Shown here: piece after piece, positions 22,718 through 41,835 of the stretch | How positions within the stretch are numbered: position 1 is the first letter of the stretch | Layout of the letters: every line of letters begins with the position of its first letter | Source: Parapedobacter luteus | GTDB lineage: Bacteria > Bacteroidota > Bacteroidia > Sphingobacteriales > Sphingobacteriaceae | Reading direction: 5' to 3' | Assembly: GCF_900168055.1 (NCBI RefSeq) | Contig: NZ_FUYS01000005.1 | Span: 186,001-250,000, forward strand | Length of the DNA: 64,000 nucleotides | Notes under the pieces: generated by a model | Databases searched by the model: none | What the model was told of the DNA's origin: nothing | Seen by the model: only the letters and a program-made list of their open reading frames with translations | Program-made: the position numbers and the translations under genes

Positions 22718-24223
22718 TTGTCTGTACTTCAAAAATTTGCCGGACAAACCGCTATTTACGGGCTGAGCACCATCGTTGCGCGGCTGATCAACTTTGTGCT
22801 TACGCCGCTGTTCGTAAGGAAGTTTCCAACGGCTGTTTATGGCATTTTCACCCATTTGTATAGTTGGGCGGCGATGGTACAGGCTGTTCTGGCATTCGGA
22901 ATGGAAACCACCTTTTTCCGATACCTACAGAAGCACGAAAACAACAAGGAAAGGGTTCTCAGCAACAGTTTCCTTGTCATTCTGTTCGTTTCCGTCTTAT
23001 TTGTCATTACCGTTTTTTTATTTACACCGACTATCGCAGCATGGCTCGACAATGGTGGTCAGGGCGACGACTATCCTCGATATGTTCGCTATTTTGCGGT
23101 CATTCTGGCGGCAGATGCATTGGCTGTTATACCTTTTGCGCAGCTGCGGGCCGACGGGCGCCCGATTCGGTTTGCGGTGGTGAAACTCCTGAATGTCCTG
23201 ACGTTGGTGGGGCTCAACCTACTGTTTATCGTGGTTATTCCGTGGGCATTGCACCACATGCCCGCATGGGTTCCCTACTTTGAAGGGTGGTATCGACAGG
23301 GATGGTTGGGCTACGTTTTTTTGGCCAATCTTGCTGCCAGCGGGCTTACGCTCGTGCTTCTGCTTCCTGAACTGCGGAAGATTCGGCTACGGCCTGATCG
23401 CAAGCTTCTGGTTGACATGCTTTCGTACAGCTTTCCCGTATTGGTTGCCAACATTTCGTTTATCATCAACGAGTACCTCGATAAGATGATGATCCCCCTC
23501 CTGGTGCCGGGAAAAGCAGGAGAGGTGGATAACGGCATATATGGCGCAGTCTCCCGCATTGCGGTCTTTCTTAGCCTTTTCGTACAGGCATTCCGCCTGG
23601 GGGCCGAACCGTTTTTTTTCAGCTACGCAAAAAATGCGAATGCCCGTAGCGTTTATGCGATCATCATGGATTATTTTGTGATTGCCATGGTACTGGTGAT
23701 GGTCGGCATCACGGTCAATATCGAATGGCTGAAATATTTTATACGCGGCGGAAGCGAGGCGGACATGGCGCTCTATTGGTCGGGTTTGCACATTGTCCCG
23801 ATCTTGCTTATGGGCTATGTTTTATTGGGTATTTATGTAAATTTATCGATTTGGTATAAGCTTTCGGATCAGACGCGCTTTGGTCTTTATATTTCAGGTA
23901 TTGGCGCTGTCATCACCTTGGTGCTCAATTTCGTGTTCATCCCGCGGTATAGCTATGTTGCCTCGGTCTGGATTACGCTGGTCGTTTATTGTTGTATGGT
24001 AGCACTTTCCTACTTCTGGGGACAGCAGCGATACCCCATTCCTTATCGGGTAGGCAAGGCATTGGGCTATATCTTGGCAGGTGCAGGCATCTGCTGGCTG
24101 TCCTTCAGTGTCTTCGATAGGAATGTATACGTTGGAAACCTCCTTTTCCTGGGGTTTATTGGCGTGACGCTTTTGCTGGAGCGGAAAATGTTGCTGGCGG
24201 TCTTTAAGCGAAGCACTCGTTAA
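22718..24223 (+). CDS. Polysaccharide/lipid-linked sugar flippase (MATE/MOP superfamily)
   Basis: A 501-residue integral membrane protein with about 14 hydrophobic segments, typical of Wzx-like flippases. The N terminus KFAGQTAIYGLSTIVARLINFVLTPLF is the family pattern. It would move lipid-linked sugars across the inner membrane. The start appears to be TTG 22718: no ATG lies near, and the frame upstream closes at once (TAA 22711-22713). No glycosyltransferases are adjacent, so it is an orphan relative to a polysaccharide cluster. The end overlaps the convergent dusB gene by 4 bases. Confidence 0.9.
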   Translation: MSVLQKFAGQTAIYGLSTIVARLINFVLTPLFVRKFPTAVYGIFTHLYSWAAMVQAVLAFGMETTFFRYLQKHENNKERVLSNSFLVILFVSVLFVITVFLFTPTIAAWLDNGGQGDDYPRYVRYFAVILAADALAVIPFAQLRADGRPIRFAVVKLLNVLTLVGLNLLFIVVIPWALHHMPAWVPYFEGWYRQGWLGYVFLANLAASGLTLVLLLPELRKIRLRPDRKLLVDMLSYSFPVLVANISFIINEYLDKMMIPLLVPGKAGEVDNGIYGAVSRIAVFLSLFVQAFRLGAEPFFFSYAKNANARSVYAIIMDYFVIAMVLVMVGITVNIEWLKYFIRGGSEADMALYWSGLHIVPILLMGYVLLGIYVNLSIWYKLSDQTRFGLYISGIGAVITLVLNFVFIPRYSYVASVWITLVVYCCMVALSYFWGQQRYPIPYRVGKALGYILAGAGICWLSFSVFDRNVYVGNLLFLGFIGVTLLLERKMLLAVFKRSTR

Positions 24224-25212
24224 GCCCATTCGGGCTCAAACTGCTCACTGATTTCATCGAGCACGGCGTGGATGTCGGCAATAGCCGTAAGGGAAACCAG
24301 TTTCATGCGATACTCCTTGAAATGCGGAATGCCTTTGAAATAGTTGGCGTAGTGACGCCGCATTTCGAAGACACCGGTTTTCTCCCCTTTCCACGCAATG
24401 GATTTCTCGAAGTGTGTGCGGCAGACAGCCACCCGTTCGGCAATGGTGGGGCCAGGGAGGTATTCGCCTGTTTGGAAAAAGTGCTTAATTTCGCGGAATA
24501 TCCACGGGTACCCAATCGATGCACGGCCAATCATGATGCCGTCTACTTCATACTCCATGCGCCATGCGGCAGCCTTCTCCACACTGTCGACGTCGCCATT
24601 GCCGAAAATAGGAATTTGGATGCGGGGGTTGCGTTTTACCTCCCGGATGAGGTGCCAATCGGCTTGTCCCTTGTAAAGCTGCGCGCGTGTGCGGCCATGA
24701 ATGCTCAAGGCTTGAATGCCGACATCCTGAAGGCGTTCGGCGACCTCATACACATTCTTGGTGTTATCGTCCCAACCAAGGCGCGTCTTGACCGTCACGG
24801 GCAGATGCGTGGCCCCCACCACGGCCTTGGTCATGGCCGTCATCTTGTCTATATCCTGCAGCAGGCTGGCTCCGGCCCCACGGCAGGCAACATTTTTGAC
24901 TGGGCAGCCATAGTTGATATCGATGAGGTCCGGCCCCGCCTGAGAGGCAATCTCCGTTGCTTCGCGCATGGTATCGATGTCGCTGCCAAAAATCTGAATG
25001 CCGATGGGGCGCTCGTATTCGAATATGTCCAGTTTCTGTCGGCTTTTGGCTGCGTCGCGGATGAGCCCCTCCGACGAAATGAATTCGGTGTACATCATGT
25101 CCACCCCGTTTTGTTTGCATACAAAGCGGAAAGGCGGATCACTGACATCCTCCATCGGTGCAAGGAGCAGTGGAAATTCACCGAGATCAATATTGCCTAT
25201 TTTGACAGTCAT
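24220..25212 (-). CDS. dusB: tRNA dihydrouridine synthase (DusB-type)
   Basis: A 330-residue FMN-dependent enzyme that reduces uridine in the D-loop of tRNA. It begins FPLLLAPMEDVSDPPFR (FMN barrel strand 1). The active-site Cys is in NYGCPVKNVACRGAGASLL. SIHGRTRAQLYKG and IFGNGDVDS are phosphate-binding segments, and GIMIGRASIGYPWIF completes the barrel. ATG 25212 is preferred, because the longer frame to 25281 crosses into trpC. It has its own -7 element inside the trpC-dusB gap and is probably also read through from the trp operon. Confidence 0.94.
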   Translation of the reverse strand: MTVKIGNIDLGEFPLLLAPMEDVSDPPFRFVCKQNGVDMMYTEFISSEGLIRDAAKSRQKLDIFEYERPIGIQIFGSDIDTMREATEIASQAGPDLIDINYGCPVKNVACRGAGASLLQDIDKMTAMTKAVVGATHLPVTVKTRLGWDDNTKNVYEVAERLQDVGIQALSIHGRTRAQLYKGQADWHLIREVKRNPRIQIPIFGNGDVDSVEKAAAWRMEYEVDGIMIGRASIGYPWIFREIKHFFQTGEYLPGPTIAERVAVCRTHFEKSIAWKGEKTGVFEMRRHYANYFKGIPHFKEYRMKLVSLTAIADIHAVLDEISEQFEPEWA

Positions 25213-25255: not shown

Positions 25256-26050
25256 CTAATCGGATGACTGCAAAGACGCAACGAAGTGCTGTATGGCTTG
25301 TGCGGGATCTCCGGTCTTCATGAAATTTTCGCCAATCAGGAAGGCTTGGAATCCTGCTTGGCGCAGCCGCTTGATAGTGGCGGCATTGCTGATGCCACTT
25401 TCTGAAACCTTGATAAACCGGTCTGGAATCGAATCGGCCAGTCCCAGCGAATGCTCCAGTGATACCGTAAAGTCTTTCAAGTTGCGGTTGTTTACGCCGA
25501 TGGCATCTACGCTGTCCATGATGCTGCGGTCGAGTTCGTCGTGTCCGTGCACTTCCAGTAGGACGCTGAGGCCCAGTGATTGTGCCGTTTCAGACAACGA
25601 CTTGATCTCACTTGGCCGGAGGACCGCCGCAATCAACAAGATAACATCCGCACCATGCGCTTTGGCTTCAAACAGCTGATACTCGTCAATGATAAACTCC
25701 TTACGGAGCAGGGGAATAAGCAGTGCGTCACGCGCGGCCGTCAGGTCATTGAGGCTGCCGCTAAAAAACTCCGAATCAGTAAGTACGGAGACTGCTGACA
25801 CGTGGGCGGCCTGGTAGCCGGCAACGACTTCCTCCACGGGTGAGCGATCGTTAATGATTCCCTTGGATGGCGAAGCGCGCTTATATTCGGCGATGATGCC
25901 GTTTTTGCCGGGCGACAATACAAATTCGCGCAGCGAAAAACATGCTCGGGAAAATAGCGGTTTCCTTTCCAAATCGGTTATCGAAAGGGTTGCTTTTGCC
26001 TGTTCGACTTCCTGTCTTTTTTTGGCGATGATGGTATCTAAGATAGTCAT
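25256..26050 (-). CDS. trpC: Indole-3-glycerol phosphate synthase
   Basis: A 264-residue TIM-barrel enzyme that closes the indole ring in tryptophan synthesis. Recognisable segments are AEYKRASPSKG (catalytic Lys), SVLTDSEFFSGSLNDL, LLRKEFIIDEYQ, EVHGHDELDR, IGVNNRNLKDF and SESGISNA. The length is normal for a stand-alone TrpC. It follows trpG with a 6-base gap. The trpD gene normally placed between trpG and trpC is absent here, and no trpF, trpB or trpA follows. Confidence 0.97.
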   Translation of the reverse strand: MTILDTIIAKKRQEVEQAKATLSITDLERKPLFSRACFSLREFVLSPGKNGIIAEYKRASPSKGIINDRSPVEEVVAGYQAAHVSAVSVLTDSEFFSGSLNDLTAARDALLIPLLRKEFIIDEYQLFEAKAHGADVILLIAAVLRPSEIKSLSETAQSLGLSVLLEVHGHDELDRSIMDSVDAIGVNNRNLKDFTVSLEHSLGLADSIPDRFIKVSESGISNAATIKRLRQAGFQAFLIGENFMKTGDPAQAIQHFVASLQSSD

Positions 26051-26056
26051 TTTTTT

Positions 26057-26722
26057 TCAGTGGTCAATGGTCGGTGAAGGGTGATCTGCGGCCAGTGAAG
26101 GGTGGCCGGTGATCGGTGATCGATGCTGGGGTGTTGACGACAGCCAGTTGGCAATCATCTCCTTGCCATATTGGGTGAGTACCGATTCGGGATGGAATTG
26201 TAGCCCCTTTACATCCAATGTGCGGTGCGAGAGGCCCATGATGACTCCGTAGTCATCCTCGGCGGTGATGCGGAGGACATCGGGTAATTGCTCCCGCGAT
26301 ACCGCCCAGGAATGATAGCGTCCTACGGAAAACGAGGACGGCAGGCCGCTGAATAGGGGCTCGTCAGATACCGTAACCGATAGCGGCATGGCCATACCAT
26401 GTACTGGCTTGGCAAGATTATAAAGGGAGCCGCCATACACTTCGGCGATGGCCTGTTGGCCAAGGCAGATACCGAGAATGCTTTTCGTTGGCCCGTATTC
26501 GCGGATGACATCAAGCAGTAATCCCGCCTCCTGCGGAATGCCCGGCCCGGGCGAAAGCAGGATTTTGTCGAAAGCCGCTACATCTTCCAGCGCAAACTTA
26601 TCATTGCGCCATACCGTGGCATCATGCCCGCATTCATGCAGGAGGTGCACGAGGTTGAAGGTGAAAGAGTCGTAATTGTCTACCACCAATATCCGTGGTG
26701 ATGATTGTTGTGGGTTGTTCAT
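26057..26722 (-). CDS. trpG: Anthranilate synthase component II (glutamine amidotransferase)
   Basis: A 221-residue class I glutaminase that feeds ammonia to TrpE. The catalytic Cys lies in GICLGQQAIAEV and the His-Glu pair in LQFHPESVLTQYG. ATG 26722 gives the standard start near RILVVDNYDSFTFNL; longer frames overlap trpE. The core ends at about residue 199. About 20 extra residues follow, rich in H, P, S and D (SSTPQHRSPITGHPS...), encoded by near-repeats of GGTGATCGG-like units and not part of the enzyme fold. Gaps are 7 bases to trpE and 6 to trpC. Confidence 0.96.
   Translation of the reverse strand: MNNPQQSSPRILVVDNYDSFTFNLVHLLHECGHDATVWRNDKFALEDVAAFDKILLSPGPGIPQEAGLLLDVIREYGPTKSILGICLGQQAIAEVYGGSLYNLAKPVHGMAMPLSVTVSDEPLFSGLPSSFSVGRYHSWAVSREQLPDVLRITAEDDYGVIMGLSHRTLDVKGLQFHPESVLTQYGKEMIANWLSSTPQHRSPITGHPSLAADHPSPTIDH
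26060..26126 (-). repeat. Short degenerate repeats encoding the TrpG tail
   Basis: The plus-strand sequence contains near-repeats of GGTCGGTGA, GGCCAGTGAAGGGTG and GGTGATCGGTGATCGATG. They encode the low-complexity C terminus of TrpG. Confidence 0.55.
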
Positions 26723-26729
26723 TGTCGTA

Positions 26730-28139
26730 TTAAATATCTTGTGCCAGTTCCAGCGCTTTGCGCAGGGCGGCAATTTTGTTATTGACTTCCTGAAGCTCGT
26801 TTTCGGGATTTGAATCGGCAACAATGCCTGCGCCGGCTTGATAATGAAGGGTGTTGTTGCGGCTTAAGAACGAACGTATCATGATGGCGTGGTTGAAATC
26901 GCCATTAAAGCCCATATAGCCGATGGCTCCGCTATAAAAGCTGCGCTGCTGGTTTTCATAGCGATCGATCAACTGCATGGCCATATGTTTGGGTGCTCCG
27001 CTAAGCGTCCCGGCCGGAAATGTATCTCCCACGACATCAAAAGAGTTTATTCCTTTTTTCAGTGTACCGCAGACTTTGGAAACCAAGTGGATAATATGGG
27101 AGTAATACTGCGTCTCCTTGTAAGATTTGACGTGTACATGCGCACAGTGACGGCTTAAATCGTTGCGGGCAAGATCGACCAGCATAACATGTTCGGCGTT
27201 TTCCTTAGGGTCTTCCTTAAGGGCTTCAGCAATTTTTTCATCCCGTTCTTGGTTGCCGCTACGCTTGAACGTACCGGCAATGGGGTAAATGGTCGCTTCA
27301 TTGTTGCGGATGGTCAATTGGGCTTCGGGCGAGGAGCCGAATAATTTGAAGTCACCGTAGTCGAAATAAAACAGGTACGGTGAAGGGTTGATGGAGCGTA
27401 GCGAACGGTATACGTTGAATTCATCGCCTAAGAATGGCCGGGAAAAGCTCCTGGACGGCACAATCTGGAAAACATCACCCCGGTAAATGTGGGTCTTCAT
27501 TTTTTCTACGAGGGCTTTAAACCCCTCATCGGTCATGTTTGACGTTTCTCCACCGTTGATGGAAAAGCTGTATTCGGGGAAGTTTTTGTTTTGGATAAGG
27601 TATTGGATTTTTTCCAATCCGGAGGGGCTTTCTTCGTTTTCAAGTTGATGCTCGAACATATAAAGCTGATTGCGGAAATGATCGATGGCAATGACATACC
27701 GATAGACATGGTATTGCAAGTAAGGAATATTGCGGTTGGGATCGATCGGGCTTTTCAATTCGATATCCTCAAAGTGAGCTACCGTATCAAACGTAAAGAA
27801 GCCAAACAGGCCATTGGAAATGACATTAGCATCCAATACGCGTGTTTCTTCAAACGCTTGCCTGAACAGGGAAACTTCTTCACGAAGGTTGATGGCAGCA
27901 GCAGGCTTCCTTTCCACCGGGCTGCCGGGGTACTGGATTTCGAGAAACTCCTTATCCAGTTTAATACCTGCTATTGGCTGGCAACAAATATAGCTCATGT
28001 TGTTTTCCCGGCTATGGTATTCTGAGCTTTCAAGCAACAGGCTGTTTGGAAACACGTCACGCAGCCTGAGGTAAGTGCTTACCGGCGTGGTGGTATCCGC
28101 CAGCAAGTGTTTGTAGTTGGTTTTAAATCGATAAGCCAT
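26730..28139 (-). CDS. trpE: Anthranilate synthase component I
   Basis: A 469-residue chorismate-utilising enzyme that makes anthranilate from chorismate with ammonia from TrpG. Active-site segments are IVPSRSFSRPF, GSSPEAQLTI, PIAGTFKRSG, LVDLARNDLSRHC and FPAGTLSGAPKHMAMQLID. The N-terminal LLESSEYHSREN resembles the LLESx element of the tryptophan feedback site, so feedback inhibition is likely. It is the first gene of the trpE-trpG-trpC group and lies directly behind the leader peptide and attenuator. Confidence 0.97.
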   Translation of the reverse strand: MAYRFKTNYKHLLADTTTPVSTYLRLRDVFPNSLLLESSEYHSRENNMSYICCQPIAGIKLDKEFLEIQYPGSPVERKPAAAINLREEVSLFRQAFEETRVLDANVISNGLFGFFTFDTVAHFEDIELKSPIDPNRNIPYLQYHVYRYVIAIDHFRNQLYMFEHQLENEESPSGLEKIQYLIQNKNFPEYSFSINGGETSNMTDEGFKALVEKMKTHIYRGDVFQIVPSRSFSRPFLGDEFNVYRSLRSINPSPYLFYFDYGDFKLFGSSPEAQLTIRNNEATIYPIAGTFKRSGNQERDEKIAEALKEDPKENAEHVMLVDLARNDLSRHCAHVHVKSYKETQYYSHIIHLVSKVCGTLKKGINSFDVVGDTFPAGTLSGAPKHMAMQLIDRYENQQRSFYSGAIGYMGFNGDFNHAIMIRSFLSRNNTLHYQAGAGIVADSNPENELQEVNNKIAALRKALELAQDI

Positions 28140-28160: not shown

Positions 28161-28194
28161 AAAAAAAACCCGACGGATTTTTAAAACGTCGGGG
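28161..28194 (-). terminator. trp attenuator terminator (regions 3:4)
   Basis: In the leftward transcript CCCGACG (28193-28187) pairs with CGTCGGG (28175-28169) across an 11-base loop and is followed by eight U residues (28168-28161). It ends 21 bases before the trpE ATG. Its 5' arm is also the partner of the antiterminator arm at 28257-28249, so the two folds exclude one another. Confidence 0.93.
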
Positions 28195-28257
28195 CATATA
28201 TGTTTAAATCTTGAGCCGTGATTAACCACATGTAACCGTCCCAGCCTGCCCGACGTT
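28185..28257 (-). promoter_or_regulatory. trp antiterminator pairing (regions 2:3)
   Basis: AACGTCGGG in the transcript (28257-28249, codons 18-20 of the leader peptide) is a perfect 9-bp complement of CCCGACGTT (28193-28185). The second segment supplies the whole 5' arm of the terminator. The pairing is therefore longer than the 7-bp terminator stem and precludes it. Confidence 0.88.
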
Positions 28258-28308
28258 ATTTCCATCGAGCCGCCACCATAATGCGATGCGGAACTTGTTC
28301 ATTAACAT
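28222..28308 (-). CDS. trpL: trp operon leader peptide with tandem Trp codons
   Basis: A 28-codon open frame from ATG 28308 to TAA 28224-28222. A second in-frame ATG at 28302 would give 26 residues. Codons 11 and 12 are both TGG (28278-28273). Region 2 of the attenuator coincides with codons 18-20. Stalling at scarce charged tRNA-Trp would place the ribosome 15 bases short of region 2, leaving it free to form the antiterminator. Continued translation would cover region 2 and allow the terminator. The peptide itself needs no function. The first ATG is about 7 bases after the -7 promoter element. Confidence 0.88.
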   Translation of the reverse strand: MLMNKFRIALWWRLDGNNVGQAGTVTCG

Positions 28309-28315
28309 AGTGTAG

Positions 28316-28345
28316 CAAAAATATAAAAAAAAAACGCCAAACAAA
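28316..28345 (-). promoter_or_regulatory. trp operon promoter
   Basis: Reading leftward, TTTG (28345-28342), an 18-base spacer, then TATTTTTG (28323-28316) matches the Bacteroidota TTTG/TAnnTTTG promoter exactly. It is the best promoter in the window. Confidence 0.82.
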
Positions 28346-28370: not shown

Positions 28371-29048
28371 TCAGTCATCCAACAGATCCGGCCTTCGGGA
28401 TTTGGTCCGGGCGATGGCCTGTTCGTCCCGCCATTGGTTGATGGCGGCCTGATTGCCACTGAGCAATACATCGGGAACTTTGTGCCCATTCCAGTCGGCC
28501 GGCCGGGTATACACCGGAGCGTCCAATAAGCCACCTTGGAACGAATCCGAAAGCGCTGATGTTTCATCCGATAGCACGCCCGGGAGCAGACGTACAACAG
28601 CATCAACCAAGACCGCCGCAGGCAGCTCTCCGCCGGAGAGGACATAGTCGCCGATCGAAAGTTCACGGGTCACATAGATGTCGCGTATGCGTTGGTCAAT
28701 GCCCTTATAATGCCCACAAAGGATGATAAGGTTGGCTTTGGTTGACAGGTGGTTGGCGATAGTCTGGTTGAGCGTGTCGCCGTCAGGTGTCATGAAGATG
28801 ATCTCATCATAGCTGCGCTGGGCTTGCAGTTGCTCGATACAAGCGGCAAAAGGGGCCACTTGCATCACCATGCCGCTGCCGCCCCCGTACGGGTAGTCGT
28901 CCACGCTTTTATGCTTATTATCGGCGTAATCGCGCAGGTTGTGCACAACGATTTCGCAAAGTCCCTTTTTTTGCGCACGCTGTAAGATGGAATGTGCAAA
29001 AGGACTATCCAACAGCTGGGGTAGCACCGTAATAATGTCAAACCGCAT
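28371..29048 (-). CDS. trmD: tRNA (guanine-N1-)-methyltransferase
   Basis: A 225-residue TrmD that makes m1G37 in tRNA and prevents +1 frameshifts. Family segments are [17 protein letters not shown], the YGGGSGMVM loop, [12 protein letters not shown] and [16 protein letters not shown] (the knotted SAM site), and [11 protein letters not shown]. It is usually in an operon with rimM and rplS, but here it stands alone between metE and the trp promoter. Its -7 element lies 5 bases before the ATG. Confidence 0.97.
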
Positions 29049-40443: not shown

Positions 40444-41835
40444 ATGGCAGTAATCAAACCCGCTTTGGCAAAAGGCACGCGCGACTTCTCGCCCGTGGAA
40501 ATGGAAAAACGTAATTACATTTTTGATACCGTCAAAAAGGTATTCGCCAAATACGGATATCGTGAAATACAGACCCCTTCCGTTGAAAACCTGCAAACCC
40601 TTACAGGTAAATATGGCGACGAAGGGGATAAGCTGATTTTTAAAATCCTCAATTCGGGGGATTACCTGGCGAAGGTCCCTGCCGAACTGCTGGAAAGCAG
40701 GGCGTCGGCACCGCTGATTCCGCATATTGCCGAGAAGGCGCTGCGCTATGATCTAACGGTGCCTTTTGCTCGGTATGTCGTGATGCGTCAGCATGAGATT
40801 GCCTTACCGTTTAAACGGTTCCAGATACAACCGGTATGGCGTGCCGATAGGCCCCAACGGGGGCGCTATCGGGAGTTTTACCAGTGCGATGTCGATGTGG
40901 TAGGTTCGGACAGCCTGCTTAATGAAGCGGAGTTTGTACTTATTTATCACGAGGCGCTTACTAATTTGGGGTTGAGCGACTTTACGATTAAGCTAAACAA
41001 CCGCAAGATATTGACCGGTATCGCGGAAGTGCTCGGTAAGCCGGAGCTGATTGTAGACATGACTGTCGCCATTGATAAGCTTGACAAAATTGGACTGGAT
41101 GGCGTGGTCACGGAATTACTTGACCGCGGCTTTTCTCCGGAAGATTTGGAAAAGCTGCAGCCTATCATTCAACTGCAAGGGTCTAATATGGAAAAAATCG
41201 AAAACCTGAAGCAAGTGCTGGCGTCGTCAGCAATCGGCTTGCAGGGGATCGATGAGCTCGAAACGGTATTGGGTTATGTTGAAAAGCTGACGGGTGATAC
41301 GGCACTGCTGAATCGTTTTGTGGCGGTTGACATCACGTTGGCGCGCGGACTTAATTATTATACGGGGTGTATTTTCGAAGTGGCAACCAATGAAGTCCGT
41401 ATGGGAAGCATCGGCGGCGGCGGCCGATACGATGACCTTACCGGAATGTTCGGACTCAAAGGGCTTACCGGCGTGGGCATTTCGTTCGGCGCAGATCGGA
41501 TATACGATGTGTTGGAAGAACTCGGATTATTCCCCGAAAGCACTGCCCAGTCTACCAAAGTACTCATCAGTAATTTCGACAAGCTCGCAGAACTATATGC
41601 GTTGCCCTTGCTGCAAAAACTACGTAATGCCGATATCGCCGTTGAGCTTTATCCCGCCGCGGCAAAGCTTAAAAAACAATTGGCTTATGCCGATGCCAAG
41701 AAGATACCGTATGTTGTCCTCATCGGGGAGGAGGAAATCCAAAGCGGACTCTTGACATTGAAAGATATGCAAACGGGTGAACAGCGAAAACTGGATGAGA
41801 AGGCATTGTTTACCTTTTTATCTTCACCACTATGA
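40444..41835 (+). CDS. hisS: Histidyl-tRNA synthetase
   Basis: A 463-residue class II synthetase. Motif 2 is RFQIQPVWRADRPQRGRYREFYQCDVD, the histidine-specific loop is LARGLNYYTG and motif 3 is near GVGISFGADRIYD. The C-terminal anticodon-binding domain begins at about residue 370 (TKVLISNF). It is the first gene of a two-gene unit with the YccF-domain gene, which overlaps its stop by 4 bases (ATGA). Confidence 0.98.
   Translation: MAVIKPALAKGTRDFSPVEMEKRNYIFDTVKKVFAKYGYREIQTPSVENLQTLTGKYGDEGDKLIFKILNSGDYLAKVPAELLESRASAPLIPHIAEKALRYDLTVPFARYVVMRQHEIALPFKRFQIQPVWRADRPQRGRYREFYQCDVDVVGSDSLLNEAEFVLIYHEALTNLGLSDFTIKLNNRKILTGIAEVLGKPELIVDMTVAIDKLDKIGLDGVVTELLDRGFSPEDLEKLQPIIQLQGSNMEKIENLKQVLASSAIGLQGIDELETVLGYVEKLTGDTALLNRFVAVDITLARGLNYYTGCIFEVATNEVRMGSIGGGGRYDDLTGMFGLKGLTGVGISFGADRIYDVLEELGLFPESTAQSTKVLISNFDKLAELYALPLLQKLRNADIAVELYPAAAKLKKQLAYADAKKIPYVVLIGEEEIQSGLLTLKDMQTGEQRKLDEKALFTFLSSPL

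Follow-up and report, generated by a model that had tools for sequence, protein, structure and literature searches.

The trpE gene of Parapedobacter luteus follows a short leader that very likely acts as a ribosome-mediated trp attenuator. An initial annotation of this DNA had called it a classical attenuator of that kind, and the call is supported by the exact anatomy of the leader, by its presence in 81 of 83 trpE loci of the Sphingobacteriaceae, by the correlated change of its arms and by constrained folds. As far as a search of the open-access literature shows (most subscription journals lie outside it), the trpE attenuator of the Sphingobacteriaceae is previously undescribed, and it would extend ribosome-mediated trp attenuation through a family of Bacteroidota.

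Anatomy of the trpE leader

The window, that is the whole stretch of 64,000 nucleotides that was analysed, comes from a genome of 4.83 Mb. The ORF list and a profile search give the order trmD, leader, trpE, trpG, trpC and dusB on its minus strand (Table 1). The trpE gene is 94% identical to trpE of P. koreensis, and its score against TIGR00564 (427 bits) is under the curated cut-off of 517.7 bits. The start of trpG is probably at MNNPQQ, and dusB might be a further member of the trpE-G-C operon. On the upstream side, 25 nt separate the stop codon of trmD from the -33 element of the leader promoter, and no terminator was seen by eye in these 25 nt. Further upstream, a SAM riboswitch (RF00162, 79.7 bits, 31717-31614, minus strand) precedes a metE-like ORF at 31494-29173.

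The promoter TTTG-N18-TATTTTTG and the frame of 28 codons with TGG TGG at codons 11-12, both reported in the initial annotation, were confirmed base for base. The spacer between the -33 and -7 elements is 18 nt long, the leader ATG (28308-28306) lies 7 nt (CTACACT) past the -7 element, and the frame closes with TAA at 28224-28222. A third TGG, found in the eight other Parapedobacter sequences, is CGG in the window (28272-28270).

Three pairings can be drawn in the leader. Region 2 (AACGTCGGG, 28257-28249) forms a 9-bp helix with region 3 (CCCGACGTT, 28193-28185), as the initial annotation had it, and none of 200 shuffles of the stretch between them scored as high as this helix. Region 3 is shared with the terminator stem, in which CCCGACG (28193-28187) and CGTCGGG (28175-28169) form 7 bp just ahead of eight T (28168-28161); 21 nt separate the end of the T tract from the trpE ATG (28139). 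The overlapping 2:3 and 3:4 folds, and the terminator with its eight U ahead of trpE, are thus both present as first described. The third pairing had been missed: the initial annotation found no convincing 1:2 hairpin, yet one exists, in which GCTCGATG (28270-28263) pairs with CGTCGGGC (28255-28248) over 8 bp, with two G-U pairs, a loop of 7 nt and a shuffle p of 0.01. Region 1 begins two nt past the second Trp codon, and its partner CGUCGGGC overlaps region 2. An unusual feature of the window is the position of the stop codon, 24 nt beyond region 2. Folding energy was dropped as evidence for the attenuator: the energy of the leader is unremarkable (z = -0.96; 31 of 200 shuffles give an equal or better fold) and is therefore, taken alone, no proof of one.

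Table 1. Positions of the trpE leader, its parts and the neighbouring genes in the window, with the second leader found on another contig
Feature	Position	Strand	Basis
trmD, upstream gene	28371..29048	-	TIGR00088 above cut-off
-33 element TTTG	28342..28345	-	read from sequence; fits Bacteroidota consensus
-7 element TATTTTTG, fits TAHHTTTG	28316..28323	-	TA and TTTG unvarying in 9 Parapedobacter sequences
Predicted transcription start, 5th or 6th base past the -7 element	28310..28311	-	F. johnsoniae spacing
Leader ORF MLMNKFRIALWWRLDGNNVGQAGTVTCG, stop included	28222..28308	-	matching 28-codon ORF in all 9 Parapedobacter sequences
Tandem Trp codons TGG TGG, codons 11-12	28273..28278	-	alignment of 9 Parapedobacter
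Region 1, GCUCGAUG, partner 28255-28248	28263..28270	-	region finder and alignment
Region 2, AACGUCGGG, in leader frame, codons 18-20	28249..28257	-	sequence and alignment
UAAUCAC, divergent form of the UAAUCAACCAAAACC block of relatives	28218..28224	-	alignment
Region 3, CCCGACGUU, common to antiterminator and terminator	28185..28193	-	sequence and alignment
Region 4, CGUCGGG, terminator 3' arm	28169..28175	-	sequence and alignment
U8 tract of intrinsic terminator	28161..28168	-	read from sequence
trpE, anthranilate synthase component I	26730..28139	-	best NCBIfam match TIGR00564, E 9.5e-128
trpG, anthranilate synthase component II	26057..26722	-	TIGR00566 above cut-off
trpC	25256..26050	-	NF001377 above cut-off
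dusB, next gene 3' of trpC, start placed at MTVKIG	24220..25212	-	TIGR00737 above cut-off
Second WWW leader and terminator before trpD-trpF-trpB-trpA	L226:1013-1161 (G000:C10)	+	sequence

Conservation and correlated change in the Sphingobacteriaceae

The family sample consisted of 83 trpE upstream regions, namely 80 named loci and three more of the genus, including the window. A leader was counted when an ATG frame of 10-45 codons with WW or WxW began 3-10 nt past a loosely defined -7 element. Such a Trp-pair leader was found in 81 of the 83 loci and in 9 of 4150 dinucleotide shuffles, the 83 rows not being independent, since Sphingobacterium contributes many leaders that hardly differ. Two loci were missed: L061, where the leader uses a GTG start, and L081, which has no -7 of the required form at that distance. 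Across the nine Parapedobacter sequences, TGGTGG, CGTCGGG in region 2, CCCGAC in region 3, CGTCGGG in region 4 and a run of five T are invariant. The comparison with related genomes proposed in the initial annotation thus finds the Trp codons and the arms kept.

Outside the family, 29 further trpE loci of the class were sampled as best-scoring hits rather than by random draw; three loci of the same family and two at contig ends (L136, L151) were left out, which gave 24. A Trp-pair frame is present in 19 of these 24, with a -7 element found in 15 and not in four, and 11 of the 15 start at most 10 nt past the element, two of them on TTG. The remaining five class loci (L133, L134, L153, L157 and L143, the last with only 151 nt upstream) showed no Trp-pair frame.

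Between genera the arms change together, clearly for 3:4 and weakly for 2:3. In an anchored test, region 2 was placed by its 3' core, region 3 by CCC and region 4 by GGG, and only the four outer columns were scored, in 69 of the 83 loci (47 distinct triples; 14 loci dropped). The outer columns of 3:4 were paired in 76% versus 67% in shuffles (0 of 5000 as high) and those of 2:3 in 65% versus 60% (101 of 5000 as high); the shuffles ignore relatedness, and the percentages are lowered because some rows, at least four of those retained (L023, L080, L088 and L091), look anchored on the wrong CCC. Region 2 could not be anchored in 10 of the 83 loci, nine of which are MAGs. Co-varying arms between genera are GUCGGG/CCCGAC, AUCGGG/CCCGAU and GCCGG/CCGGC. 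Whole clades carry their own triple of arms: ACGUCGGG/CCCGACGU/CCGUCGGG in Parapedobacter, GCAUCGGG/CCCGAUGC/GUAUCGGG in the S. multivorum group and AGCCGG/CCCGGCGA/UCGCCGGG in Mucilaginibacter. As counter-evidence, a C-A mismatch in 2:3 persists in several loci with GCGCCGGG/CCCGACGC. The compensatory changes in regions 2-4 for which the initial annotation had suggested looking were therefore seen between genera, but not within the nine Parapedobacter, where the 2:3 core is invariant and no covariation was found.

An automatic region finder gave rough tallies: a shuffle p up to 0.05 in 49 of 83 loci, and 4 nt or more on the terminator 5' arm in 57 of 83. In Parapedobacter it set the terminator in the wrong place at L021, L022 and L023 at least, and because of such errors we placed weight on the alignment and on the anchored test. 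Within Parapedobacter, 91.7% of the cells of the 1:2 hairpin are paired, with one-sided changes only; of 69 family loci, just 12, eight from Parapedobacter, have a 1:2 hairpin that beats shuffles at p up to 0.05. In Parapedobacter an inner helix might also form inside the 2:3 loop, where 82.5% of cells are paired and 2 of 500 shuffles do as well, but it is a weak candidate because a slide of +2 nearly equals its covariation score.

Proposed mechanism

The anatomy, its conservation and the joint change of the arms are established by the sequences, whereas the transcription start, the stalling, the handling of region 2 when Trp is plentiful, the efficiency of termination and the response to Trp are inferred. 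The RNA would start 2-3 nt ahead of the leader AUG, and this nearly leaderless RNA would take ribosomes. When charged tRNA-Trp is scarce, a ribosome would halt at the tandem UGG and cover region 1, region 2 would pair with the newly made region 3, and with no terminator formed trpE-G-C would be transcribed. When Trp is plentiful, the ribosome would proceed through region 2 as far as the stop codon; region 2 might then be masked by the passing ribosome or refolded onto region 1, which would leave region 3 free for region 4, and transcription would stop at the U tract.

In constrained folds with the A site of the ribosome footprint on either Trp codon, 2:3 reached 0.81 and 3:4 only 0.001, and with everything blocked up to a ribosome on the stop codon 3:4 reached 0.97. 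With the footprint on the stop alone masked, 2:3 was still preferred (0.82). The full leader without ribosome gave 0.77 for 2:3 versus 0.07 for 3:4, and at the moment when region 3 has just been made the values were 0.53 for 1:2 versus 0.37 for 2:3.

In the trp attenuator of E. coli, the ribosome at the stop codon covers region 2. The window lacks this E. coli-type covering: with 24 nt between region 2 and the stop codon, a ribosome parked at the stop would leave region 2 uncovered. Of 69 family loci, 41 have the stop at most 15 nt from region 2 and 28 have it more than 15 nt away. Given a stop so far from region 2, termination in Parapedobacter would rely on refolding into 1:2, on a moving ribosome, or on a ribosome within the loop that blocks closure. 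Of all steps in the model, the one by which region 2 would be kept off region 3 when Trp is plentiful is the least certain.

Promoter spacing and near-leaderless start

The promoter consensus TTTG/TAnnTTTG is quoted in PMC6847099, which also reports that many transcription starts of F. johnsoniae lie 4 or 5 nt past the -7 element and that Bacteroidota mRNAs are without Shine-Dalgarno sequences. From this promoter spacing, a 5' UTR of 2-3 nt is predicted for the leader mRNA. Leaders of more than 10 nt are reported to make up 87% of the F. johnsoniae transcripts with a probable promoter (PMC6847099), leaderless mRNAs 5.5% in F. psychrophilum (PMC9723704) and 5' UTRs shorter than 10 nt about 3.7% in B. 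thetaiotaomicron (PMC7366714). The initial annotation had listed the roughly 7 bases between the -7 element and the leader ATG as a difference from the E. coli geometry. The spacing is exact, and the trait belongs to the family, not to this locus alone: the start codon lies 3-10 nt past the -7 element in 82 of 83 leaders, one of them on GTG, and these leaders would have a 5' UTR of at most about 6 nt.

It is quite unlikely that the attenuator, although real, is served mostly by longer transcripts reading through from trmD, or by starts at the second AUG (28302), and is therefore not leaderless in practice. Read-through would fit the lack of a terminator visible by eye between trmD and the promoter, and the second in-frame ATG is codon 3 in four of nine Parapedobacter, including the window, and codon 4 in one more; the same ATG is, however, absent in the other four, and the first start codon holds its short spacing in all family loci but one.

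Leaderlessness as a trait exclusive to attenuators was rejected, as trmD and other ORFs share the short spacing. The trmD start lies 5 nt past a -7 element (TATCTTTG) in the window and 3-4 nt past one in 33 of the 80 named loci, a count that omits loci without trmD or without a strict -7 element. Since its start sits so close to this element, trmD mRNA is probably leaderless in many family members. As a control, ORFs of at least 150 aa in the window and the 80 loci were taken (414 starts), 62 of which have a strict -7 element within 60 nt; 45 of these 62 start at most 10 nt past it, so many because trmD contributes 34 of the 45. In the window alone, three of five control ORFs with a -7 element have a spacing of 4-6 nt. 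An ORF at 40444 (plus strand), a putative histidyl-tRNA synthetase gene, starts 4 nt past a -7 element. With a leader seemingly loaded at or near its 5' end, near-leaderless initiation in Bacteroidota would become testable on a regulated readout.

Other modes of sensing

At the trpE leader, every Rfam family, T-box included, stays below its gathering score; RF00513 (Trp_leader) gave no match there up to E 10, and Bacteroid-trp (RF01692) gave none. A conserved block, UAAUCAACCAAAACC, sits between regions 2 and 3 in Sphingobacterium and, in most leaders of that genus, downstream of the stop codon and not at it. A narrow pattern found the block in 51 of 101 loci examined. A loose pattern, devised after the sequences had been seen, matched 65 of 86 loci from the family, none of the 15 other loci of the class and 136 of 8300 mononucleotide shuffles. 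Neither the window nor P. koreensis gave a match to the block pattern. A role of the block as an element common to other attenuators found no support: an exact 14-mer search gave 25 matches in 61 family genomes, and among the 12 inspected one is a trp leader and eleven are coding or unrelated by eye.

We regard it as very improbable that Trp is sensed by an RNA-binding protein, a tRNA (T-box) or this block instead of the translating ribosome. The block does lie outside the coding part in most of the relatives that have it, and the loose pattern finds it in much of the family, which translation alone does not account for. Against such sensing, neither TRAP nor TrpR turned up in any of nine Parapedobacter genomes, the present one included, in searches that were positive in their controls (B. 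subtilis for TRAP, known carriers for TrpR); T-box and all other Rfam families stay below gathering score; and the Trp codons stay where the block is unmatched, in the window and P. koreensis. That the hairpin is merely a constitutive terminator of trmD, and the small two-Trp frame a product of chance, can hardly be maintained, even with an intrinsic terminator in place and no other one seen by eye in the 25 nt behind trmD, because the Trp-pair leader is far more frequent in the family than in shuffles (81/83 versus 9/4150), occurs also where the upstream gene is not trmD (L021), and a constitutive terminator between promoter and trpE would silence trpE.

Relation to known attenuators

The E. 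coli trp attenuator combines a tandem-Trp leader peptide, 1:2, 2:3 and 3:4 pairings and a U-tract terminator before trpE. The ribosome-mediated attenuator proposed here shares the tandem Trp codons, the three pairings and the U-tract terminator, and differs in its distant stop codon (24 nt beyond region 2) and in its predicted 5' UTR of 2-3 nt.

The Bacteroid-trp RNA appears in a table of PMC2864571. Under strict filters, RF01692 matches 29 of 296 genomes of the phylum and none of the eight Sphingobacteriaceae among them, which indicates that the Rfam model misses the Sphingobacteriaceae branch. Both have a Bacteroidota host, a leader with Trp codons (WWW in RF01692) and a terminator. The initial annotation had counted a region 2 inside the reading frame as a departure from the E. 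coli geometry; this position was indeed observed, but it is not special, as region 2 overlaps the stop codon, and so the end of the frame, in most RF01692 loci. The 29 RF01692 loci were examined by a script that found the terminator in 25 and not in four. The terminator loop and 3' arm offer region 2 its best pairing in 24 of these 25, whereas in Sphingobacteriaceae it pairs with the 5' arm; the start lies 16-20 nt past the -7 element in 16 of the 25 and 4-7 nt past it in five. The trpE leader appears to work like both known kinds and fits neither Rfam model.

For S. meliloti, PMC7298713 describes an rnTrpL that starts at the trpL ATG and trp genes split over several operons; leaderless trp attenuation is therefore already known elsewhere. 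S. meliloti is an alphaproteobacterium in which only trpE(G) is reported to be attenuated, whereas here both trp operons have a Trp leader. For F. psychrophilum, strong clues for leader-peptide attenuation before amino-acid operons are given in PMC9723704, the main text of which does not contain the word tryptophan.

A second leader before trpD and other candidates

A different contig of this genome carries trpD, with trpF, trpB and trpA behind it. The trpD leader, MNCKNEHITWWWHSN, begins 11 nt after a CATATTTG element. A GGCAA stretch starts 10 nt from the first base of its stop, and the terminator (GCUUGCC/GGCAGGC) is followed by seven T. A Trp-pair leader precedes trpD in nine Parapedobacter genomes and in two of three other family genomes with trpD, the third (G407) having none there. 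Region 2 of the trpD leader lies after the stop, as in E. coli, whereas the trpE leader has it inside the frame. Two wirings of one sensor, the runs of UGG, thus occur together in one genome. The putative trpD antiterminator is less well supported than that of trpE, because the ungapped finder gives it a short 2:3 match: among nine Parapedobacter, seven have 5 nt, one has 7 nt on the loop side and one has 8 nt; shuffle p ranges from 0.04 to 0.68 across the nine. Against RF00513 the trpD leader gives a sub-threshold match (25.5 bits, cut-off 41, E 0.27).

A wider reading, which we consider rather unlikely, would have the split trp pathway of Parapedobacter, and probably of the Sphingobacteriaceae, co-controlled by two differently wired UGG-run attenuators, with UAAUCAACCAAAACC as a second input to the trpE one in most of the family. 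The trpE leader would then be nearly leaderless and the trpD leader conventional, and the block might serve as a site for a protein, as a pause signal or as the seed of a leader RNA that acts in trans, the last by likeness to the trans-acting, terminated leader RNA rnTrpL of S. meliloti. In none of 16 loci did the block pair with the trpD 5' region better than shuffled motifs did (lowest p 0.145).

For other amino acids, an automatic search of 13 hisG and 24 ilvD loci for a frame 3-11 nt past a -7 element gave one unconvincing frame (L173). By eye, His-rich leader frames such as MIAFIHHIHFHHRPCGDY were seen upstream of hisG in two congeners (L165 and L166), about 23-25 nt past their -7 element; these might be his attenuators with an ordinary 5' UTR.
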